The notes under the pieces are model-generated. The model was not told where the DNA came from. It ran no database searches and saw only the letters and a list, made by a program, of their open reading frames with translations. Both the position numbers and the translations under genes were made by a program. DNA of 41,219 nt from Anaerolineae bacterium (lineage in GTDB: Bacteria; Chloroflexota; Anaerolineae; JAAYZQ01), in the NCBI GenBank assembly GCA_023544525.1, contig JAMJFU010000009.1, positions 1 through 41,219 on the forward strand, written 5' to 3'. Positions 4,305-39,333 of this stretch are shown piece by piece (within the stretch, counting starts at the first letter, position 1; each line of letters starts with the position of its first letter).

Positions 4305-6905
4305 CTAAACGACGCGGGGCACGCGGGCCAGGATCTCGCTGACGACCTCATAGTTGATGGTACCCAGCCGCTCGGCGACGTCCTCGGCCGTGATGCGGTC
4401 CTTGCCCTGCTCACCGATGAGGACAACTTCGTCACCCTGGCGCACGCCAGGGATATGGCTTACCTCGATCATCGTTTGATCCATGCATACCCGCCCGACG
4501 ATGGGCGCCCGCTGGCCGCGGACCAGGACATGGCCCCAGTGGTTGGGCGCCCGCCGGAAGCCATCGGCATAGCCGACAGGGATGACGGCGATCTGCTGCA
4601 CGTCCGTGGTCTGGTAGGCATTGCCATAACTGACAAAGCTACCTGGCGGCAGGGTCTTGACCTGGGCTACCTGCGTTTTGAAAGCCAGGGCTGGCCGAAA
4701 GTCAGGTGGGCAGCGGACCTGAGACGAAGGATCCAGGCCATACATGGCGATGCCCAGGCGGACCATGGTGAAATGGCTGCCCGGCAATGCCAGGATGGCG
4801 GCGGAATTAGCCGCATGGACGAGGGGGAACTCGATGCCTGCTTCTTCCAACCCAGCCAACACCTGGCGAAAGCGGCCGGCCTGCCACTGCGTATACTCGG
4901 GGCTGCTGTCGGCCACCGAAAAGTGGGTAAAGATCCCCTCCAGGATCAGGTCGGGCAGCATCTGCAATTCGTGGACAAAGGGCAGGACCTGGTCGGGCAA
5001 CAGGCCGAGCCGGCCCATGCCGGTGTCTACCTTGACGTGGACGCGGACCTTGCGGTTCAGCTCGCGAGCAGCCCGGCTGAGTGCACGGGCCACGTCCAGG
5101 TCAAAGACCGTGGCCGCGAGATCGTTGAGCACCAGTTCGCGGGCCTGCCAGGCAGGGGTAAAGCCCAAGACGAGGACCGGCGCGGCGATACCTGCTTGGC
5201 GCAGGATCGCGCCTTCGTTGATGCTGGCCACCCCCAGGTACTTGGCACCGTTGTTGAGCGCCGTACGGGCGACGCGAACGGCCCCGTGGCCATAGGCGTC
5301 TGCCTTGAGCACAGCCAGCACACGGCTCGCCGGGCCGACCATGCCGGCTATCCTCCGCACGTTGTGAGCAATGGCCTCCAGATCGACTTCGAGCCAGGTG
5401 GGCCGCCCTGGACGCAGCAGCCGTACTTTGCGCCAACCGGTGGTCTGGCGCACCAAGCGGCTCTCGGCCTGGTCCGGGTGCGCCATCAGGCCAGCTACCA
5501 CGTCTTCCATGCGGGATTCTACGCTGCCTTTGATCAGCACCGTGTCGCCCGGCGCCAGGCGGCTGCGGAGCCCGCGCAAGGTGTCGTCGCTGGTATAGGT
5601 CACCAGGATCCTGTCGGAGGCCAGTCCGGCGGCCCGTGCTTCGGCGGCAATGTGCCGGGCGCCGTCACCCTGGGCTACCAGGAGGTCGGCAACCTGTGCC
5701 GTCCGCTGGCCGATCTGGCGGGAGGCGATGGCGTCAAAGCTGCCAGGTTTGGGCGCCACTTCGCTCGGGTGTTCCAACAGGTCGCCCAGGAGCGCGATCC
5801 GCCGGCCTTTGTCAAAAAGGGCCAGGGTCTCCAGCGCCACCAGGGTCGAGGCGGCGCTGGCGTTAAAGCTGTCGTCCAGGATGCGGGTGTCGTTGACACC
5901 GGCCAGTGGGTTTAGCCTTCCGGGCAGGGGTTGCACGGCCGCCAGCACGCCCAGGGCTTCTTCGAGCGGAACGTCGAGGACCAGGCCCACGGCCACGGCC
6001 GCCAGGGCAGCATAGACGCTGTGCGCACCCAGCAGCGGCAGGCGGACGCGCAGCTTGCGCTTGCCGCGCAGGCCCGGTACCGGGAAGAACTCTTTGACAA
6101 AGACTGTGAAGGACACCCCTGATGGATTGGCGGCCACAGAGCCGGCCACGAGGTCGGCGTCCGGATCCGTGCCGTACGTTACCAGCCGGGCCCGGGTGCG
6201 CGCGGCCATGGCCCGGACACGTTCGTCATCGTAGTTCAGGATGGCCACGCCCCCCGCGCTGGCCGCTGGCAACGCCTCTACCAGGCGGCCCTTCTCGGCG
6301 GCAATGGTCTCGAGCGATCCGAGATAGGCCATGTGGGTCTCGTTCACCGAGGTCACCACGCCGATGCGGGGGCGGGTCAAGGCAGCCAGCTCGCGGATCT
6401 CGTCGACGCCGTCGCAGGCCATTTCCAGGACGGCCACCTCGTGTTTGGGCTCCAGCCGTCCCAGGGCGATAGGCAGGCCGTAGCGGTCGTTGTAGTTCCC
6501 AAAATTGCTCAGGACTGTGTGGTGGCGGGCCAGGACGGCGGCGGTGATCTCTTTCGTGGTGGTCTTGCCACTGGAACCGGTGATGCCCACGACGGTTGGA
6601 TTCAGCTTGTGGAGCACGAAACGTGCCCAGTCGACCAGGGCCTGTCGCGTGTCGTCGATGACGATGCAGGTAACGCCATAGGCTTCCAGGTCAAGGGGCC
6701 GTTGGCAGAGCACACCCGCGGCCCCACCGCGGGCTGCATCCAACACATAATCGTGGCCATCGCCCTTTTCCGTTGCGACGGCCAGGAATAGCTCTCCCGG
6801 GTTTAGCAGGCGGGTGTCGTAGCAAAAGTCGACAAAGGTGGTGGCAAAGACAGGGCCGTGGACCCTCCCCCCAGTAGCTGCCAGAAGGTCATCCAGGTAG
6901 ATCAA
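4305..6905 (-). CDS. murF-alr: Bifunctional MurF ligase / alanine racemase fusion
   Basis: 866 residues from TTG 6905. Residues 1-475 are MurF (UDP-MurNAc-tripeptide:D-Ala-D-Ala ligase): P-loop GITGSSGKTTT at 107-117, SNFGNYNDRYGLPIAL, and the C-terminal ligase domain with LDDSFNASA. Residues about 503-866 are a PLP alanine racemase: WLEVDLEAIAHNV, catalytic Lys534 in VLKADAYGHG, MGRLG, RLGIAMYGLDP, and catalytic Tyr760 in FVSYGNAY. Both active sites look intact, so one polypeptide would make D-Ala and add D-Ala-D-Ala to the peptidoglycan precursor (the Ddl step is needed between). Similar fusions are known in Bacteroidota. The start overlaps the upstream pseudokinase stop as TTGA, with GGAG 5 nt before it, indicating translational coupling; a longer frame starting at 6989 would overlap by 88 nt and lacks support. 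Confidence 0.94.
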   Translation of the reverse strand: MIYLDDLLAATGGRVHGPVFATTFVDFCYDTRLLNPGELFLAVATEKGDGHDYVLDAARGGAAGVLCQRPLDLEAYGVTCIVIDDTRQALVDWARFVLHKLNPTVVGITGSSGKTTTKEITAAVLARHHTVLSNFGNYNDRYGLPIALGRLEPKHEVAVLEMACDGVDEIRELAALTRPRIGVVTSVNETHMAYLGSLETIAAEKGRLVEALPAASAGGVAILNYDDERVRAMAARTRARLVTYGTDPDADLVAGSVAANPSGVSFTVFVKEFFPVPGLRGKRKLRVRLPLLGAHSVYAALAAVAVGLVLDVPLEEALGVLAAVQPLPGRLNPLAGVNDTRILDDSFNASAASTLVALETLALFDKGRRIALLGDLLEHPSEVAPKPGSFDAIASRQIGQRTAQVADLLVAQGDGARHIAAEARAAGLASDRILVTYTSDDTLRGLRSRLAPGDTVLIKGSVESRMEDVVAGLMAHPDQAESRLVRQTTGWRKVRLLRPGRPTWLEVDLEAIAHNVRRIAGMVGPASRVLAVLKADAYGHGAVRVARTALNNGAKYLGVASINEGAILRQAGIAAPVLVLGFTPAWQARELVLNDLAATVFDLDVARALSRAARELNRKVRVHVKVDTGMGRLGLLPDQVLPFVHELQMLPDLILEGIFTHFSVADSSPEYTQWQAGRFRQVLAGLEEAGIEFPLVHAANSAAILALPGSHFTMVRLGIAMYGLDPSSQVRCPPDFRPALAFKTQVAQVKTLPPGSFVSYGNAYQTTDVQQIAVIPVGYADGFRRAPNHWGHVLVRGQRAPIVGRVCMDQTMIEVSHIPGVRQGDEVVLIGEQGKDRITAEDVAERLGTINYEVVSEILARVPRVV

Positions 6906-8158
6906 TCGTTCTCCGTGTCCTCTTCTCCGTGTTTGGGGACCTCCCACATGGGCGGCACTTCGGGCATGGGCGGTGGGGTCTCGGCCCAATCGATGTTGGG
7001 CATTTCGGGAGGTTCGGGCATGGCGACGGGCTGCTGCTTGCCCATTTCGGGCCAGAGATCGCTCAGGTCCAGCGAGGGCATCTGCAGCGGCTCAGGGAAC
7101 TCGGCCGACACCTCGCCGGTGGCCACGGGGGTGGGTTCGGCGATGACCGTGTCCTGGACCTCGATGCCGTGGCCGACCTCGACCCGCCCCACTTCCACGC
7201 GAGTGATCTGGATCGGCTCATCCAGCACCACCTCCTCGGGCAGCGGCGGGCGGGACGGTGGGGGCGGTGGCTGCTCCAGGCGCAGCCCGCACTTGCGGCA
7301 GAAGCGCCCGCCCTGGTTCTTTGTCCCGCAGCGGGGACATTCCTGCCCGGTGGCTTGTGGCTGTGGCTTCTGTACGGAAGCGACGAGGGCCGAGCTGCCA
7401 AGTGCAGCCAGGAAGGCCTTGACGTCGGGATAGCGGTCCGCTGGCGAAGGGGAGAGGGCCTTGACGACGGCCTGGTCGATGCCCGGGGAAACGTCAGGAT
7501 TGAACCGGCTGGGCGGCAACACCCGGTCTCTTACGACCTGGGGCGGGCGCTCGGTGAGCAGCCTGTACAGGATGGCGGCCAATGAGTATACGTCGTCGCG
7601 AGCATCTACCGCCTGCCCGGACCGCCGCCCGGGGGATAGATAGGGTGATGCCCGGTCGGCGAACTCGGCCCCGACCAGGCTCATCAATTCACCCAGGCCA
7701 AGGTCGGTGACCTGCACCCGGCCGTCGTCCAATAGCACGATCTTCTCAGGCGTGAGGGTGCCGTGGGTGACCCCCTTCCGGTAGGCGTGCTCCAGGGCCT
7801 GCCCCACCTGCATCGTGAGGTCAGCGGCAGCGTCCACGGCCCATGGCTGATCCAGCTTGGCGGCCAGGGGGTGGGCCTTTTCGAGCGACTGGGTGACCAA
7901 ATAGGGCAACCCTGCCTCTTGCCCGACTTTGCGGACAGAAGCGATGTTGGGGTGGTTGAGCTGCCGGATGGCCCGGGCCAGCCTCTCGAATCGGTGGGCG
8001 ATCTGCGGATCCTCGCCCAGCAACCGGGGCAGGATCTTGATCGAAACGAGATCCCTGCTATCCGGATCCTGGCCACTGAACAGGATATAGCCCTCCTCCT
8101 GCCTTTCGAGCCTGAGTGATTTGTAACTCTCTACGATCCGTCGAACCAGGTCACGCAT
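6902..8158 (-). CDS. Zinc-ribbon pseudokinase (Ser/Thr kinase fold, catalytic residues lost)
   Basis: 418 residues from ATG 8158 (AGGGG about 8 nt upstream); an in-frame GTG at 8194 touching the cutA stop is the alternative. Residues about 20-260 follow the PknB-type kinase fold: Lys41 in LVSIKIL, RLARAIRQLNHPNIASV, DDVYSLAAILYRLLTERPP, PADRYPDVKAFLAAL. The catalytic loop HRDLKPxN is replaced by HGTLTPEK (132-139), so the base Asp, Lys and Asn are gone; DFG is DLG (152-154), and the glycine loop and helix-C Glu are absent. A zinc ribbon (Cys 274, 277, 287, 290) follows, then a Pro/Glu-rich acidic tail of about 120 residues. No membrane segment. It probably binds ligands or partners without phosphotransfer. 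Coupling to murF-alr suggests a scaffold or regulator of wall synthesis. Confidence 0.88.
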   Translation of the reverse strand: MRDLVRRIVESYKSLRLERQEEGYILFSGQDPDSRDLVSIKILPRLLGEDPQIAHRFERLARAIRQLNHPNIASVRKVGQEAGLPYLVTQSLEKAHPLAAKLDQPWAVDAAADLTMQVGQALEHAYRKGVTHGTLTPEKIVLLDDGRVQVTDLGLGELMSLVGAEFADRASPYLSPGRRSGQAVDARDDVYSLAAILYRLLTERPPQVVRDRVLPPSRFNPDVSPGIDQAVVKALSPSPADRYPDVKAFLAALGSSALVASVQKPQPQATGQECPRCGTKNQGGRFCRKCGLRLEQPPPPPSRPPLPEEVVLDEPIQITRVEVGRVEVGHGIEVQDTVIAEPTPVATGEVSAEFPEPLQMPSLDLSDLWPEMGKQQPVAMPEPPEMPNIDWAETPPPMPEVPPMWEVPKHGEEDTEND

Positions 8159-8193
8159 GGTCTTTTCCCCTATTCCGGCAGGAGCAGATGCCA

Positions 8194-28277: not shown

Positions 28278-31200
28278 TTGAGTCTCAAGGATTTCAAGGC
28301 CCTACGCATCAGCCTCGCCTCGCCAGAGGAGATTCTATCCTGGTCGTATGGTGAGGTGACCAAGCCAGAGACGATCAACTACCGTCGTCTCCGTCCGGAA
28401 CGAGATGGTCTCTTTTGCGAGGCGATCTTTGGCCCGCAGAAGGACTATCAATGTGCCTGCGGCAAGTACAAGCACCCTCGTTTCCGTGGTGTGACCTGTG
28501 AGCGCTGTGGTGTCGAGGTGACGCGCTCGTCGGTCCGGCGCGAGCGTATGGGCCATATCAAGCTGGCCGCGCCCGTCGCCCACATCTGGTACACGCGACG
28601 GGTACCGAGCTACCTGGGCCTGCTTTTGGATGTCTCGCGCCGCAATATGGACCGGGTCCTCTACTTTGCCCAATACGTGATCACCTACGTGGACGAGGAA
28701 GGGCGCACCAAAGCCCTGCGCCGGCTGGACGAGGACCTCGCGCGGGACAAAACCCGCATGGAGCGCTCGACCCAGGAAAAGATCGAAGAGATCGACCAGC
28801 GGCTCCAGGAGGCGCTGGATAACCTGCAGCACCGGCGGCGGCAGCGGGAAGAGGAGCTGGAAGACAAGGGCACGGCGATGACCGATGCCGTGACCAATGA
28901 GGTGCGGGCCATACAAGGGCGGCTGGAGGCCCTCGTCGGCCAGAAGGCGCCCGAAGACCTGGCCCTCAGCTTTGACGAGACGCCCATCGTGGCCGAAGGG
29001 GAGACGGTGGAACGGGCACATCTGGCCCGGCCCCAGGAGGTGGCGGCCAATCGCCTGGATGAGATCAAGGAGGAGATCCGCCAGGAGATGGAAGATGTGG
29101 CCCTGCTTATCTCTGCCGAAGGGGAGCAGCTGACCTACGAGGCCAACCAGGCAAAGGAGATTCTGAACGAACGCCTGGTCCAGCAAATGGCCGAACTGGA
29201 TGCTGAGGTCGACGAGCAGAAGGAAGAGCTGCGCAACCTGAAGCAGATGACCTTCCTGACTGAGAGTCGATCTCATGAGCTCTCCGAACGGTGGGGGCAT
29301 GTCTTTGAGGCCAAAATGGGCGCCGAGGCCTTTCTGGATATCTGCAAGCAAGTCGATCTGGATGCTCTGAGCAAAGAGTTGCGGGCGACCATGCGCACCA
29401 CGCGCTCAAAGCAGATGAAGAAGAAGGCGACCAAGCGGTTGGGTGTGGTCGAGGCCTTACGCAAGAGCAACAACAGGCCGGAATGGATGATCCTTTCGGT
29501 CCTGCCGGTCATCCCGCCCGAGCTGCGGCCGATGATCCAGCTCGACGGAGGCCGCTTTGCGACCTCGGACTTGAACGACCTCTACCGCCGCGTAGTCAAC
29601 CGCAACAACCGGCTAAAGCGCTTGTTGGATCTGGGCGCACCAGATGTCATCGTCCGCAACGAAAAACGGATGTTGCAGGAAGCGGTCGACTCGCTGATCG
29701 ACAACAGCCGGCGCGGCAAGGCGGTCTCGGCCCGAGGCCGGCGCCCGCTCAAGTCGCTGTCTGATTACCTCAAGGGCAAGCAGGGGCGATTCCGCCGTAA
29801 CCTGTTGGGCAAGCGCGTAGACTATTCAGGGCGGTCGGTGATCGTCATTGGTCCTGACCTGGCGCTGCACCAGTGCGGCCTGCCAAAGAGCATGGCCTTG
29901 GAGCTGTTCCAGCCCTTTGTCATCAACCGGCTGGTGGAATACAACTATGCCATCAATGTCAAGGGTGCAAAACGGATCATCGAACAACAGCGCCCCGAAG
30001 TCTGGGAAGTCCTGGAGGAGGTCATCCAGGAGCGACCGGTTCTCCTGAACCGTGCGCCCACCCTGCATCGCCTCGGTATCCAGGCCTTCGAACCCCGGCT
30101 CGTGGACGGTGAGGCCATCCAGATCCACCCGTTGGTGTGCGCTGCCTTTAACGCCGACTTTGACGGCGACCAGATGGCTGTGCACGTGCCCCTCTCGCGG
30201 AGGGCGGTGGCAGAGGCCCGGGAGCTGATGCTCTCGACCCGCAACCTGCTCAAACCGGCGAGCGGTGAGCCGATCGTGGGTCCGGCGAAGGACATGGTCC
30301 TGGGCTGTTACTACCTGACCATGGAGCGCCGTTCCAGACTGGACCAGCGCCCCACCTTTGGCAACCTGGAAGAGGTGCGCCAGGCATACGATCTGGAGCG
30401 CGTACGCTTGCACGATCCGATCCGGCTGCGATTCCGGAGCTGGATCGACGACGAGCCGCTGGAATACCTGGACCTGAGCGACGAAGTGCGTGAAAGTCTC
30501 GAAGAGGCGTCTGTCCACACCGTTGGCCAGGCTCTCGAGCTGTACCAGCTGGGCAAGCTGCGCAAAGTCACTGGCATTGCGGACGGGGACCAGCAGGAGT
30601 TCCTCGACATGCTCGAGGCTGTCGGGTACCTGCCCGAGGACCGCAGGGAGACGGCGTACATCGAGACGACGGCAGGCCGGGCCATCTTTAACCTTCACCT
30701 GCCGGGCCCGCTGCGCTTTGTCGAGGACACCATGGACAAGGGCAAGCTGCAGGACCTGGTCGCGGTGTGTTACCATCGCCTGGGCATGGATGCTACGGCC
30801 AGTCTGGTGGACGAGATCAAGGCCATCGGCTTCCGCTACGCGACCAAGTCCGGGACGAGCATCGCCGTGAGCGATATCACCGTGCCTCCCGAGAAGGAAG
30901 TGATCCTGAAGACGATCTCCGAAGAGGTGGATCGGGTGGAGCTCCAGTACCGGCGTGGCCTCATCACCGAGGATGAGCAGTACATGCGGACCGTGGAGCT
31001 GTGGACCAAGGCCACGGACGACATTACGGCGGCTGTGGCCCGCAACCTGGATCCGGACGGTCCCATCCGCATCATGGCTGTTTCCGGGGCCACCAAGGGC
31101 AGCTTTACGCCCATCCGCCAGCTGGCTGGGATGCGCGGCCTGATGGCCGACCCGGCTGGACGGATCATCGCCCTGCCCATCCGCTCCAACTTCCGGGAGG

Positions 31201-32846
31201 GCTTGACCGCCCTGGAATACTTTATCTCGACGCACGGTGCCCGCAAGGGCCTGGCCGATACCGCGCTGCGAACAGCCGATGCCGGGTATCTGACCCGGCG
31301 GCTGGTGGACGTGGCTCAGGATGTGATCGTCGATGCCGAGGACTGCGGTACTCGCTCTGGCATCTGGCTAACCCGTGACGAGAGCAAGGAGATGGGCCAG
31401 TCCATCGCCGAGCGGACCTTGGGCCGGGTCGCAGCAGGGCCCATTGTAAACCCGGATACTGGCGAGATCATTGTCGCCGCTGGAGAGTCGATCGAGCAAG
31501 AAGTGGCGGAGCGCATCGAGGAGTCGGGTGTAGACAAGGTCTATGTGCGCTCGCCGTTGACCTGTTCGCTGCGCCACGGGCTGTGCGCTATGTGCTACGG
31601 GCGGGATCTGGCCCGCGGCGGGCGGATCAAGATCGGTGAGGCGGTGGGCATCATCGCTGCCCAGTCGATCGGCGAACCGGGTACCCAGCTCACCCTGCGC
31701 ACCTTCCATACCGGCGGTGTGGCGGGTGCATCCGACATCACCCACGGCTTGCCCCGTGTCCAGGAGCTGTTCGAGGCCCGCATCCCCAAGGGTGAGGCTG
31801 TCATCTCGGACATCGACGGGCGCGTGGAGCTTGAGCAACGGGATGGTGTGCGTGTGCTCAAGGTGGTCCATCACGAAGTCTTTAGCGACGAGTATCTTGT
31901 GCCCAGGAACTATCGTATCCTGGTGGAGGACGAGCAGTCTATCCCCGAAGGGGAGGCGTTGGCCCAGTACGGCGACAGGACGATCGAGGCTGGCAATCCC
32001 GGCCGGGTGTTCGTCGAGATGCCAGCTGTGCTCGTCACGCCGCCGGACTCGTCCTACCCGGTCGAGATCCCTGTGCCGGCGAACTACCGTATCATCGTCG
32101 AGGAGGGCCAGGAGGTGGCGGAGGGTGATGCTGTGGCCCAATATGGCTCGCGGCAGATCACCACTGCTACCGCGGGCAAGGTCGAGGTGCGACCGCAAGC
32201 GACGATTTACGTCCGGCGCGAACAGCGCGACGAGCGGGAGTACGAGTTGGCCTCCACGGCCAGGCTACGGCTCGATCCTGGCTCTACCGTCAGGTCTGGC
32301 GACCAGCTGACAGAGGGGTCCATCAATCCCAACCGGCTGTTGCGGATCCTGGGGCGTGAAGCGGCGCAGGTCTACCTGTTACAAGAGATCCAGCAGGTGT
32401 ACCGGAGCCAGGGCGTGCTCATCAACGACAAGCACATCGAAGCCATCATCCGCCAGATGACCAATCGCGTGCGCGTGGTCCAGTCGGGAGACACCGAGCT
32501 CCTGCCGGGCGAGTTGGTCAATCGCCTGGTCTTCCAGGACATCAACGAAGAAGTCGTCCGGGCCGGTGGCCAGAGGGCGACGGCGCGGCCGACACTCCTG
32601 GGCATCACCAAGGCAGCCTTGAATACCGAGAGCTTCCTGTCGGGGGCCTCCTTCCAGCACACCATCAACGTACTGGCTCAGGCGGCCATCGAGGGCAAGG
32701 TCGACGGGCTCTATGGGCTCAAGGAGAACGTGATCATTGGCAAGCTGATCCCGGCAGGGACCGGCTACCGGCGATCCCGTGAGAGAGCGGCATCTGCCGT
32801 GACCGAGGAAGCTGTCCCGGCACCGCTCCCATCCGCTGCCGACTAG
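28278..32846 (+). CDS. rpoC: RNA polymerase beta' subunit
   Basis: 1522 residues from TTG 28278 with GAGGAGG 7 nt upstream. Zinc site 1: Cys 59, 61, 74, 77. Catalytic loop [13 protein letters not shown] with the three Asp of the Mg site at about 625-631. Zinc site 2: CGTRSG and [14 protein letters not shown] Glu/Arg-rich coiled-coil of about 160 residues lies between [16 protein letters not shown] and FEAKMGAEA, as in actinobacterial beta'. Past [18 protein letters not shown] are two tandem copies (1208-1265, 1266-1323) of a barrel-type segment: [22 protein letters not shown] and [22 protein letters not shown]. The gene is not next to rpoB and may be read from the promoter of the recombinase-like gene 60 nt upstream. 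Confidence 0.99.
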
Positions 32847-32971: not shown

Positions 32972-34162
32972 TCAGCGCTTGCCCAGGAGTTCGACCGCCA
33001 GCCGGGCGTAGACCCGCGCGGCGTCTACGACGTCATTGAGGCGGATCTGTTCGTCTCGAGTGTGGGCGTATTGCTCTTCGCCGGGTCCCAGGCCTATGGT
33101 GGGGATATTGGCTACCCCAGCGGTGTAGGTGCCGTCCGTGGAGAAGGACCAGCGTCCGAGCCGCGGCCGGTCGCCCAAGGTCTCGCGGACGCAGCGCACG
33201 GTTGCCTGCACCAGGGGGTGATCTTCGGGCATGACCCAGGCTGGAAAGGCGTTCCTGGCCCGGCACTCGTAGCCCGTATAGCTGGTGGCCTGATACTCGG
33301 TGACCACAACCTCGGCACCTACCTCTTCGGTGTTGATGATGTTCTGGATCTCGGCCAGGGCTTTGCGCTCCGTTTCCCCCAGGGTCAGCCGCCGGTCGAT
33401 GTAGAACGTGCAGCAATCGGGGACGGCGTTGCGGCTGGCGGCGTGGCTCTCGATTTCGGTGACGGCGATGGTTCCCTGGCCCAGAAACTCGTCTGTGGCC
33501 AGCCTGGGGGCCAGCAGTTCTATGCCAAAGATCAGGCGGGCAGCGTTGTGGATCGCGTTGTCGCCCAGGGATGGAGCAGAGGCATGGGCCGCTTTGCCCC
33601 AAACATCCACCCGCATCTCCAACCGGCCCCGGTGACCGAGGCGCACCTGCAGGTTGCTCGGTTCACCGAGGACGACATAGTCAGGGCGGATGCCCTCCTC
33701 TTCCACGAGGACGCGCATGGCCAGTCCCTCACAAGGCTCTTCCTGGACCACAGCAACCACGTAGAGATCGCCGTTGAGCTCGATGCGCGCGTCCTTGAGG
33801 GCGTTTACGGCATAAACCATCGCCGCCAGCCCACCTTTCATGTCACACGACCCACGCCCATAGAGGATGCCATCTTCGATCACTGCCTCGTACGGGGGGT
33901 GGGGCCAGCGAGCCGGTCCCCCCAGGTCCACGGTATCCATGTGGCCGTTGAGGAGCAGTTTAGGCCCACCGCCCTGGCCGACACGCCCGATCACATTGCC
34001 GATGCGGTCGGTCCAGACATCGGCAAACCCCACGCGGCGCATCTCGTCCGCCACCCGTTTTGCCACGCCCTCTTCGTGGGTCGACAGACTGGGGATCCGC
34101 ACCAGGTCCTGCAAGAAGCCGGCCATGGCCTTGGCTTGGTCTGCCCGAAAGGGGATATTCAC
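32972..34162 (-). CDS. YgeY-family selenium-metabolism-linked hydrolase (M20)
   Basis: 396 residues from GTG 34162 (GGAGG 8 nt upstream); E. coli YgeY is about 400. M20 metal ligands are visible: His in LLNGHMDTVDLGG, Asp in GRGSCDMKGGLAAMVYA, the Glu-Glu of VVQEEPCEGL, and His near the C-terminus in QYAHTRDEQ. Other sections resemble YgeY closely, for example GDNAIHNAARLIFGIELL, DEFLGQGTIAVTEI, DCCTFYIDRRLTLGET and WSFSTDGTYTAG. YgeY proteins were grouped by co-occurrence with selenium-dependent molybdenum hydroxylase genes; exact substrate unknown. A generic ArgE/DapE deacetylase is the alternative. Confidence 0.85.
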   Translation of the reverse strand: MNIPFRADQAKAMAGFLQDLVRIPSLSTHEEGVAKRVADEMRRVGFADVWTDRIGNVIGRVGQGGGPKLLLNGHMDTVDLGGPARWPHPPYEAVIEDGILYGRGSCDMKGGLAAMVYAVNALKDARIELNGDLYVVAVVQEEPCEGLAMRVLVEEEGIRPDYVVLGEPSNLQVRLGHRGRLEMRVDVWGKAAHASAPSLGDNAIHNAARLIFGIELLAPRLATDEFLGQGTIAVTEIESHAASRNAVPDCCTFYIDRRLTLGETERKALAEIQNIINTEEVGAEVVVTEYQATSYTGYECRARNAFPAWVMPEDHPLVQATVRCVRETLGDRPRLGRWSFSTDGTYTAGVANIPTIGLGPGEEQYAHTRDEQIRLNDVVDAARVYARLAVELLGKR

Positions 34163-34253
34163 GGCTGGGCCTCCACTGTGAGTTGTACCTCCTGCATTTG
34201 GGCTGGCACTCGGATGGGCCAACCCGCCAATGACTCGATGGCTCGTTAGCGGT

Positions 34254-35905: not shown

Positions 35906-35954
35906 AGGGTTTCTCGTCATCGACCCCCTGTTGAGCGCCCGGCGGGACATCTTT

Positions 35955-35983
35955 TTCACGGCCCATCCACTTTGTGGTATAAT
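35955..35983 (+). promoter_or_regulatory. Promoter of phosphatase/DUF3090/SCO1664 operon
   Basis: TTCACG (35955-35960), 17 bp, TATAAT (35978-35983) with extended TGG. Start near 35990, right before the Shine-Dalgarno. Confidence 0.75.
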
Positions 35984-35998
35984 AGCTCCGGAGATTAC

Positions 35999-36658
35999 AT
36001 GACACCAATGATGAATTTAATCCTGATCCGCCACGCGCTGAACGATTGGGTGGGCGAGAAGCTGGCGGGTTGGACGCCTGCTGTCCATCTGAATGAGGAA
36101 GGTCGTGCCCAGGCGGTTACTCTGGCACAGCGGCTAGCCGGCGTGCCGCTGGCTGCAATCTATAGCAGCCCGCTAGAACGCGCCGTGGAGACAGGGCAGC
36201 CGTTGGCTGATGCCCATGGACTGGAGCTCCGATTACGCGAGGGCCTGGGTGAGACCCGCTTTGGTGAGTGGACGGGGCGCAGCCTGGAAGAGTTAAAGAA
36301 AGAGGAGTTGTGGCCGGTAGTCCAGGTGTACCCTGGCGGGGCCCGGTTTCCGGGGGGCGAGTCTCTGCGCGAGGTGCAAGCGCGCCTGGTTGCAGAACTG
36401 GACAGCATTCGCGATGCCCATCCGGATCAGACAGTGGCGGTCGTGTCTCACTCGGATCCCATCAAATTGGCGGTGGCCCATTACCTCGGCTTGCCCTTGG
36501 ATCTCTTTCAGCGGCTGAGCATCAGCCCTGCCTCTATAACTGTGTTCGCCTTTGCACGCTTTGGTCCGCGCCTGGTGGTGATGAACCACATAGACCCCTT
36601 GCCTTCCTTCAAAATTGAGGAGGAAAAGGAGGCGCCAGAGGAGCAGGAGGAGCAGTAA
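35999..36658 (+). CDS. Histidine phosphatase, MSMEG_4193-type
   Basis: 219 residues from ATG 35999 (GGAG 5 nt upstream). Phosphoglycerate-mutase fold: catalytic His in LILIRHALNDW (RHA, not the usual RHG), Arg in SPLERAVETG, GETRFGEWTG with the acid, and the second His in VAVVSHSDPIK. The N-terminal core and its position before DUF3090 and SCO1664 genes match the MSMEG_4193 subgroup of actinobacteria. The C-terminus is a 17-residue Glu-rich tail (EEEKEAPEEQEEQ). Substrate unknown. Confidence 0.92.
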   Translation: MTPMMNLILIRHALNDWVGEKLAGWTPAVHLNEEGRAQAVTLAQRLAGVPLAAIYSSPLERAVETGQPLADAHGLELRLREGLGETRFGEWTGRSLEELKKEELWPVVQVYPGGARFPGGESLREVQARLVAELDSIRDAHPDQTVAVVSHSDPIKLAVAHYLGLPLDLFQRLSISPASITVFAFARFGPRLVVMNHIDPLPSFKIEEEKEAPEEQEEQ

Positions 36659-36660
36659 CC

Positions 36661-37185
36661 ATGCCCTACCAGGTCATCGAGTTAAAGCCAGTAGACCGGA
36701 TCACCGCGGATGCCATCGGCGAGCCCGGTAGCCGCGTGTTCTACCTCCAGGGGCGCAAGGGGAACCGCTTGGTCACGCTCATCTGCGAAAAAGAACACGT
36801 GGCAGGCCTGGCGGCAGCCATCGACCAGGTCTTGCTGTCCCTGGCAGATGGTGATGCCGGCGCGGTGGTGGCACCGGATCCTGTGATCGAGGGGGGCATG
36901 GACCTGGAATATCCGCTGGATCCCGTCTTCCGTGTTGGGGAGGTGAACCTCGGATATGACCAGGTGAGCGAGACTCTGGTCATCATCGCCTACGAACTGC
37001 TGCCCGAGGATGAGGATGCGCCGCCCTCTGTCGTCCGTTTCTGGGCAAGTCCAGCCCAGATGCGCGCGTTTAGCATGCATGGCCAGGAGGTCGTAGCCGC
37101 CGGGCGACCGATCTGTGCCATGTGTGGAGAACCGATCGACCCGGAGGGGCACTTCTGTCCACGCAGGAACGGCCATCGGCAGTGA
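36661..37185 (+). CDS. DUF3090 family protein
   Basis: 174 residues; ATG two nt after the phosphatase stop, with GAGGAG upstream. Matches the DUF3090 pattern: GSRVFYLQGRKGNRLVTLICEK, FRVGEVNLGYDQVSETLVI, VVRFWASPAQMRAFSMHG, and a C-terminal Cys motif CAMCGEPIDPEGHFCPR (about 151-167), a likely partial zinc knuckle. This uncharacterised family accompanies the MSMEG_4193 phosphatase and SCO1664 protein in actinobacteria and Chloroflexi. The gene overlaps the next by GTGA. Confidence 0.93.
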   Translation: MPYQVIELKPVDRITADAIGEPGSRVFYLQGRKGNRLVTLICEKEHVAGLAAAIDQVLLSLADGDAGAVVAPDPVIEGGMDLEYPLDPVFRVGEVNLGYDQVSETLVIIAYELLPEDEDAPPSVVRFWASPAQMRAFSMHGQEVVAAGRPICAMCGEPIDPEGHFCPRRNGHRQ

Positions 37186-37931
37186 ATGATGACCAAGACC
37201 AGGCCTTCGCGCCAACGCTGGAGCGTATCCTGCGCCTCCTTTCAGAGGGGGAGATCGAGATTGAGGGCCTGATCCCTTGGAGCTCCAATGCAACCCTCCT
37301 GGTGACCGTCCACGACGACGAGTTCTCCACCCTGGCTGTCTACAAGCCACAGCGCGGCGAGCGTCCGCTGTGGGATTTTCCCTTCGGCTCCCTGGGCATG
37401 CGCGAGGTGGCAGCCTATCTTATATCTGAGGCGTTGGGATGGAGACTTGTCCCTCCAACCATATTGCGCCAGGGTCCCCGGGGATTGGGTTCGGTGCAGC
37501 TTTTTGTCCACGCGCCGGAGGAGGCCCATTTCTTTGCCATCCAGGAGGAGGCTGGCTACCGTGAGGATCTGCAGCGGCTGGCAACCTTTGACGCTGTCGT
37601 GAACAACGCCGACCGCAAGGCTGGACACTGCCTCGTCGACCAGGAAGGGCAGCTGTGGGCGATTGACAACTCGCTGACCTTCCATCTGGAACCAAAGCTG
37701 CGGACTGTCATATGGGATTTTGCCGGCCAACCGCTGCCGGAACAGATTTTGGCCGACCTGCGGCGTTTGCAGGGGGCCCTGGGCGACGGCACTTCCCTGT
37801 CCAGGGCTCTAGAGCAGCTCTTGAGCAAAGGGGAGTTGGCTGCGCTGCGCCGCCGGCTGGAGGGGCTCATCCGTGCGGAGTGTTTCCCCGAGCCGGGGCC
37901 CGGTCGCTCTGTCCCCTGGCCCCTGATCTGA
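37182..37931 (+). CDS. SCO1664-family kinase-like protein
   Basis: 249 residues from GTG 37182, overlapping the DUF3090 stop as GTGA. Resembles PI3/PI4-kinase and HipA folds: YKPQRGERPLWDFP (ATP lysine region), GSVQLFVHA hinge, FDAVVNNADRKAGHCLV (catalytic Asp loop) and AIDNSLTFH (metal-binding Asp). These look intact, so a phosphotransfer activity is possible. With the co-translated phosphatase it may form an opposing writer/eraser pair. Target is not known. An upstream frame start at 37122 lies inside DUF3090. Confidence 0.92.
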   Translation: MNDDQDQAFAPTLERILRLLSEGEIEIEGLIPWSSNATLLVTVHDDEFSTLAVYKPQRGERPLWDFPFGSLGMREVAAYLISEALGWRLVPPTILRQGPRGLGSVQLFVHAPEEAHFFAIQEEAGYREDLQRLATFDAVVNNADRKAGHCLVDQEGQLWAIDNSLTFHLEPKLRTVIWDFAGQPLPEQILADLRRLQGALGDGTSLSRALEQLLSKGELAALRRRLEGLIRAECFPEPGPGRSVPWPLI

Positions 37932-37998: not shown

Positions 37999-39333
37999 AT
38001 GAGCGAGAACGTTGTTCGCGACCTGGGAGATGGTCTCGCCCTCCGGCGGGCGACGGTGAGGGACACTGAGGGCCTGGTCGCGTTCCATGCCGATATACAT
38101 CGCGATCCCGGCATGGAAGAGCCAGAGCAGTACGTCGCCGCCTGGGTGCGCGACCTGATGGAGCGCCCTCACCCCACGTTTCAGCCCAGCGACTTTACGA
38201 TTGTCGAGCACAGTGCGACTGGCGAAATCGTTTCGTCCTTGTGCCTGATCTCCCAGACCTGGGCTTACGAGGGCATTGAGTTCGGCGTAGGCCGGCCAGA
38301 GCTGGTTGGCACCCGGCCCGATTACCGACGGAGAGGGCTGGTGCGCGCCCAGATGGAGCTCATCCACCAGTGGAGCGCGGAGCGCGGCGAGAGGCTACAG
38401 GCCATCACAGGCATCCCCTACTATTACCGCCAGTTTGGCTACGAAATGACAATGACCCTCGGCGGAGGACGGGGCGGCTCTGGCAGCTCTGTGCCCAAGC
38501 TGAAGGAGGGTGAGGCCGAGCCATACCGCCTGCGGCTGGCGAAAGAGGAGGACCTGGGTCTCATCGCCCAGGTCTATCGGGAGGGAGCAGCCCGTTGGCC
38601 GGTGGTGTGCGTGCGCGACGCAGCGCTATGGCGCCATGAGCTCAACGGTATGAGTGATAAGAACGTCAACCGCCGGGACCTGTGCATCATCGAGACGGCC
38701 GAGGGAGAGCCGGTGGGCTTTGTCAACCGCAGCCCCAGGCTGTGGCGGGGGCGGGTCGGGATAGGGGCATACGAACTCACGCCGGGTGTTTCCTGGCTCG
38801 ATGTCACCCCGTCAGTCATGCGCCACCTGTGGTCACACGGCGAAGCTTTGGCGGCCGGGGATCCAGAGCAGACGATGGAGACCTTTGGTTTCTGGCTGGG
38901 GACCGAGCATCCCGCCTTGGAGTTGTTCAAACGACGCTTGCCCCAGATCTTGAAACCGTACGCCTGGTATCTTAGGGTCCCCGATCTCGCTGGCTTCCTG
39001 CAGCTTGTCAGCCCGGCCCTGGAAGAGCGGCTGGCAGCGTCACTGCTCAGCGGCCATACAGGCGAGCTCAAAATCAGCTTCTACCAGGGGGGCCTGTGGC
39101 TGCGCTTTGAGGCGGGGCGCGTGACGGGGGTCGAGCCGTGGCAGCCCACCCGTGAGGCGGAAGGCGAGGCGGGTTTTCCAGGCTTGACCTTCCTGCAGTT
39201 GGTCTTTGGCTACCGGACGGTGCAAGAGCTGCAGGATGCCTTTCCCGATTGCTGGACGGCAAACGATGGCGCACAGGTGCTGTTGGACGTTCTCTTTCCC
39301 CAGCAAGCCTCCGATGTCTGGCCGATCTCCTGA
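37999..39333 (+). CDS. Eis-like GNAT acetyltransferase with SCP2 domain
   Basis: 444 residues from ATG 37999 (GAAGGG 5 nt upstream). Domain order as in Eis: N-terminal GNAT (LALRRATVRDTEGLVAFH; acetyl-CoA loop TRPDYRRRGLVRAQM at about 105-119), second GNAT-like region (YRLRLAKEEDLGLIAQVY, about 170-330), and C-terminal SCP2-like sterol-carrier domain (ISFYQGGLWLRFEAGRVTGVEP). Eis enzymes acetylate aminoglycosides or protein lysines; substrate here unknown. It follows the SCO1664 gene after 67 nt and could share its transcript. Confidence 0.9.
   Translation: MSENVVRDLGDGLALRRATVRDTEGLVAFHADIHRDPGMEEPEQYVAAWVRDLMERPHPTFQPSDFTIVEHSATGEIVSSLCLISQTWAYEGIEFGVGRPELVGTRPDYRRRGLVRAQMELIHQWSAERGERLQAITGIPYYYRQFGYEMTMTLGGGRGGSGSSVPKLKEGEAEPYRLRLAKEEDLGLIAQVYREGAARWPVVCVRDAALWRHELNGMSDKNVNRRDLCIIETAEGEPVGFVNRSPRLWRGRVGIGAYELTPGVSWLDVTPSVMRHLWSHGEALAAGDPEQTMETFGFWLGTEHPALELFKRRLPQILKPYAWYLRVPDLAGFLQLVSPALEERLAASLLSGHTGELKISFYQGGLWLRFEAGRVTGVEPWQPTREAEGEAGFPGLTFLQLVFGYRTVQELQDAFPDCWTANDGAQVLLDVLFPQQASDVWPIS

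Follow-up and report, generated by a model that had tools for sequence, protein, structure and literature searches.

What do a histidine phosphatase, a DUF3090 protein and a kinase-like protein, here called P, D and K, do together when they are encoded back to back? The question is raised by the window, the whole stretch of 41,219 nucleotides of Anaerolineae DNA that was analysed, in which a sequence-only reading had proposed that K and P could add and remove the same phosphate, with D as their zinc-knuckle substrate or adaptor.

Gene layout and family membership

The three genes follow one another with a gap of 2 nt between P and D, where an AGGAGG stands just 5′ of the D start codon, and a spacing of −4 nt between D and K, whose start codon lies inside a GTGA shared with the D stop; the coordinates and spacing first read for the trio are exact (Table 1). 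The hairpin in front of P, the one found against a mean of 1.9 in shuffled sequence, is weak alone though well placed, and the promoter-like site behind it has 10 of 12 consensus matches against a shuffle mean of 0.6. Both calls are consensus matches only, and from them the trio is probably its own unit.

Table 1. Features of the trio and its upstream region, in window coordinates
Feature	Position	Strand	Remarks
Terminator-like hairpin with T tail	35927..35946	+	3′ of upstream GT2 glycosyltransferase gene, separating trio from GT2
Promoter-like site TTCACG-17-TATAAT	35955..35983	+	TG before −10 (extended −10); ~15 nt 5′ of first ATG
P, histidine phosphatase, TIGR03848 / MSMEG_4193 family, 219 aa	35999..36658	+	ATG to TAA; RH 36029-36034, SH 36446-36451
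D, DUF3090 protein, PF11290 / TIGR03847, 174 aa	36661..37185	+	ATG to TGA
D C-terminal zinc knuckle C152-x2-C155-x8-H164-x-C166	37114..37158	+	missing from one homologue clade
K, SCO1664-family kinase-like protein, TIGR03843, 249 aa	37182..37931	+	GTG to TGA
K catalytic loop D137..N141-N-A-D144-R145-K146-x-G148-H149	37590..37628	+	
K metal-binding motif D162-N-S-L-T-F-H	37665..37685	+	DFG equivalent

An Eis-like GNAT acetyltransferase gene lies directly 3′ of the trio (37999-39333). It was rejected as a fourth member, with no match at any fetched locus, that of G001, a genome of the same family, included; the upstream GT2 and M20 genes, by contrast, are matched at fetched loci. The M20 hydrolase (32972-34171), of the YgeY 'selenium metabolism-linked' family (468 bits, cut-off 321), and a 1522-aa open reading frame at 28278-32846 are not related to the trio.

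Family membership is clear for all three proteins. P scores 224 bits against TIGR03848 (curated NCBIfam cut-off 203.85), D 168 bits against TIGR03847 (cut-off 117.25) and 157.7 bits against PF11290 (cut-off 27), and K 286.1 bits against TIGR03843 (cut-off 172.4), covering model positions 1-253 of 253. The same three families stand in identical order in the actinobacterial Rv2135c-Rv2134c-Rv2133c / SCO1664 neighbourhood, and SCO1664 has been listed among the signature proteins of actinomycetes and described as 'invariably closely linked' to mshC (PMC4255298). With the families already named and the SCO1664-mshC linkage published, this instance of the trio is not new, and the families are named yet uncharacterised, just as the set had been said to lack an assigned job. 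DUF3090 has been noted as a putative metal-binding protein (PMC9425974), and BCG Rv2134c mutants are listed with altered fitness under rifampicin (PMC11329110). MSMEG_4192, which we infer from its place beside MSMEG_4193 to be the DUF3090 gene, yields mutants that are enriched after dibucaine (PMC10127668) and is present in the ClpC1 interactome (PMC10433963). The transposon phenotypes so far are weak only.

Joint retention of D and K, and fusion of P to D

With the genes of fetched loci called by a composition score, the longest open reading frame being unsuitable in GC-rich loci, roughly 60 of 80 loci, drawn from several phyla, show the order P-D-K. D stands beside K in 77-78 of the 80 loci around kinase homologues, depending on frame calls (L102 is counted as lacking D, and two loci have K alone in the profile scan), and P is there too in 61; in 16 of the 80, D-K has no P nearby. 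This arrangement is well beyond chance, and the conservation in actinobacteria and Chloroflexi that had been stated for the set is borne out by trio families found across both phyla. The K tree mostly agrees with vertical descent within Chloroflexota and Actinomycetota, with copies from Rokubacteria and Tectomicrobia nested inside, and the raw distance correlations (K-D 0.44, K-P 0.41, D-P 0.52) cannot be interpreted without controlling for the species tree. A mobile element or toxin-antitoxin system was rejected: only two plasmid-labelled records and one unannotated phage-labelled contig match, and one of the two plasmid-labelled records is 11.8 Mb, chromosome-sized.

D and K are retained or lost as a pair, as phylogenetic profiling, the check first suggested for this trio, makes plain. 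Across 179 Chloroflexota and Actinobacteria genomes both are found in 86, neither in 92 and D alone in one, counts that are uncorrected for shared ancestry. Among the 119 Actinobacteria, the 56 genomes with K are exactly those with D, and the other 63 have neither; in the 60 genomes mostly of the window's class, both are found in 30, neither in 29 and D only in one (Fisher p 5e-16 for K-D, likewise uncorrected for ancestry). The sole D-only genome, G039, has a contig end where K would lie. P, at a threshold of at least 155 bits, is found in 28 of the 30 genomes with K and in 4 of the 30 lacking it. Two genomes (G023, G057) have P, D and K each on a contig of its own; within a single contig, about 311 kb separate K from P-D in G030, and about 2.3 Mb separate P from D-K in G027. 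The co-occurrence is thus kept when the genes are unlinked, and a by-product of linkage alone does not explain it.

There are exceptions to the full set. Corynebacterium glutamicum, a control genome, has a K match and no DUF3090 match, and P is found without K and D in G006, G014 and G045. P-K pairs without D occur at L102 and, as a second copy, at L266, which fits a reading of P and K as the catalytic pair. The L266 pair lies at 5955-7263 of that locus (G112:C17:147000-161000), and its genome carries a complete trio as well.

Two loci join P and D in one open frame. At L093:8699-9883 the frame is 393 aa long and has a Met where D usually starts, which may give two products; at L079:8281-9402, a clear fusion, P runs unbroken into a diverged, zinc-less D domain, followed by a separate second DUF3090 gene (L079:9407-9907) to which the fused domain is identical at 42 of 142 residues. 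These are 2 of 223 loci, both from metagenome assemblies. Near-perfect co-occurrence of D and K even when unlinked and fusion of P to D in two lineages uphold the functional trio first proposed, and we consider it very likely that P, D and K are one functional module.

Residues and predicted folds of the three proteins

P carries the complete catalytic set of its family. Besides the RH (11-12) and SH (150-151) residues, on which an intact site had been called, R61 and E85 are present, and among 135 homologues all catalytic residues are at least 94% conserved except S150 (Ser, Thr or Tyr in 91%). Its homologue Rv2135c is an acid phosphatase that forms tetramers and lacks mutase activity; those small substrates for which kinetics were obtained had Km values above 10 mM, and the enzyme is inactive on 3-phosphoglycerate, ADP and glucose 6-phosphate (PMC3866925). 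The high Km on simple substrates suggests a special target for P.

The catalytic loops of K, called intact from the window alone, hold up in the family: K55, E75, D144-R145 and D162 are invariant in 51 homologues. An AlphaFold model of K built with these 51 sequences (mean pLDDT 89.6) was compared with the PDB by Foldseek, and the best matches are type II phosphatidylinositol 4-kinases (E 9e-9), followed by FAM20A, hydra FAM20 and Golgi casein kinase FAM20 (E about 1e-7) and CtkA (3akk, E 5e-6), with 5xoo also among the structural matches. The K family profile also matches the sequences of FAM20A (E 7e-5) and PI4K-IIbeta (7e-4) in the correct places. The predicted fold of K is of the PI4K-II/FAM20 type, its catalytic residues are complete and the second metal ligand is a His.

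K differs from each of these kinases. The FAM20 kinases (FAM20B a xylosylkinase, FAM20C a protein kinase) share the fold and the E-helix/VPPT, N-x-DR and DN motifs, and FAM20B is opposed by a histidine phosphatase, PXYLP1. K, however, is about half their size at 15-18% identity, has a His replacing the FAM20 residues after DR, and lacks secretory features: it has two Cys and, like P and D, no long hydrophobic segment. A FAM20-like way of working would rest on fold and motifs. Type II PI4-kinases, which phosphorylate an inositol lipid, have GSxQLF and DNGL-type motifs in common with K, whereas K scores 17.1 bits against PF00454 (PI3/PI4 kinase), under the gathering score of 27.1, with no membrane-binding loop seen and no inositol-gene link; by the PF00454 score the likeness is structural only. 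HipA-type kinases (CtkA, HipA, HipBST) have the same broad fold and an operonic small partner protein; in contrast to these, the trio has P and D as neighbours of K rather than a HipB-like DNA-binding partner, and is single-copy, mostly vertically inherited and essentially absent from plasmids and phages. The stretches GERPLWDF and KLRTVIW and the C-terminal PWP of K, conserved specifically in this family, probably make up its predicted substrate site.

D is modelled as a strand-rich alpha/beta protein (pLDDT 89.1) and has no match at E 0.001 in the PDB or in a viral structure library, nor one among DNA-binding families. Its best PDB match is Pur-alpha (E 0.096, prob 0.69), which has a similar topology, and profile comparison with hhalign gave PUR/Whirly homology no support over shuffled columns; we take Pur-alpha as a topological lead for D without sequence support. 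In 149 DUF3090 sequences the near-invariant residues are G20, G23, R25, F27, Q30, E43, K44, Q46 (His in the window), L50, P85, G148, R149 and N170. The zinc knuckle named in the sequence-only reading is present in the window (C152, C155, H164, C166), yet the CxxC is complete in 130 of the 149 and absent in 18, of which ten or so group as one supported Chloroflexota clade when K is placed in a tree, while a few more are truncated reads. As the trio persists where the knuckle is missing, zinc binding is not the essential role of D; the family alignment marks the knuckle as dispensable and lost in one Chloroflexota clade.

A model for the trio, its rivals and its candidate target

We propose a model in which P, D and K work as a single phosphorylation module in the cytosol. 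K, as a bacterial relative of the FAM20 / type II PI4-kinase branch of the protein-kinase-like fold, would transfer phosphate to a specific target, and P would remove that phosphate or keep the product in check. D would be the dedicated partner of both, either holding K and P together or presenting or sensing the target, and would act via its conserved charged core (R25, E43, K44, R149), with the zinc knuckle as a dispensable stabilising element. We put the probability that K and P act as kinase and phosphatase on one phosphate, D being their dedicated partner, at about 0.5.

Cysteine/thiol metabolism is hinted at by the neighbouring genes as the first place to look for the target. Actinomycetes loci have the order uppP-P-D-K-cysQ-mshC, while the Chloroflexota trio is without adjoining uppP, cysQ or mshC. 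By sequence cluster the commonest neighbour is the CysRS/MshC group, with mshC 3′ of the trio in eight Actinomycetes and a divergent cysS in three Thermoflexales. As this signal comes from two or three lineages, it is a lead only. In the Thermoflexales loci (L062, L063, L065, about 6690-8160) D-K is divergent from a PIN/TRAM-like gene and a cysteinyl-tRNA synthetase gene, a folC-like gene lies directly 3′ of D-K, and the phosphatase is elsewhere or missing.

The strongest rival is that the trio is metabolic rather than signalling, K phosphorylating a small molecule, P dephosphorylating that molecule or a later intermediate and D binding the metabolite. FAM20B phosphorylates xylose and hydra FAM20 phosphorylates sugars (PMC7948968), which together with the 5xoo match would suit such a role for K. 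The nearest characterised relatives of P are small-molecule phosphatases (alpha-ribazole, phosphoserine), an IMPase/CysQ-type gene adjoins K in three lineages (Actinomycetes, L101, L133), and D has a conserved charged core with almost no conserved hydroxyls. Against this, neighbour statistics gave no biosynthetic genes that recur around the trio across lineages, and Rv2135c acts poorly on the metabolites tried. Neither of two candidate pathways tracks with K. MshC-like genes do not do so in 60 Chloroflexota relatives, and mshC above cut-off was found in none of 45 trio-locus genomes tested and not in the window's genome. Inositol-1-phosphate synthase, as PF01658 (a PF07994 search was dropped, having missed the C. 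glutamicum control), is found in 22 of 30 genomes with K and 17 of 30 without, and was undetected in the window's genome and G001. By these gene-content searches, neither mycothiol nor inositol is the shared factor behind the trio, and we regard a metabolic role as somewhat unlikely. In nine Chloroflexota genomes (G033, G029, G037, G014, G036, G060, G063, G065, G067) a second CysRS-like gene reaches 345-405 bits against the MshC model, under its cut-off of 485, and could be an MshC-like branch outside Actinobacteria.

The substrate role first offered for D is weakened further. D as phosphoacceptor would be a phospho-switch that K phosphorylates at the Ser/Thr of column 39 and P reverses, and this residue is Ser or Thr in 96% of 149 sequences and close to the invariant E43-K44, in a protein that is almost never without K. 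Column 39 is, however, the sole hydroxyl with strong conservation and falls within a predicted strand, and K occurs without D in C. glutamicum, at L102 and in the second G112 copy, which makes a phospho-switch improbable.

With the invariant His149 (51 of 51 homologues) at the usual place of the Asn metal ligand, five residues past the catalytic Asp, phosphotransfer by K is itself presumed, and SelO and SidJ, as cited in PMC7948968, offer a precedent for such folds switching chemistry; a K that carries out AMPylation, glutamylation or similar, with P independent, is nevertheless very improbable, as K retains the Lys, the Glu, the catalytic Asp and the DFG Asp and P-K pairs persist even without D.

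We retain the kinase-phosphatase pair with D as partner. Its fullest form, a previously unrecognised reversible-phosphorylation system of Actinobacteria and Chloroflexota with a FAM20/PI4K-type kinase, an opposing histidine phosphatase, an obligate DUF3090 scaffold without a confident PDB fold match and a cysteine/thiol or translation-linked target, we advance only tentatively. New here are the joint keeping and loss of D and K, the two P-D fusions, the predicted K fold, the dispensable knuckle as read from the alignment, and mycothiol and inositol as not common to the trio.

SCO1664 is an actinomycete signature protein of mycobacteria and Streptomyces that has so far had no assigned job. The pairing of D with K and the joining of P and D in a single polypeptide make a single testable complex out of three orphan families and show which protein pairs to test first. 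If the kinase-phosphatase switch is true, bacteria would possess a conserved kinase related to the FAM20/PI4K branch, together with an eraser of its own.
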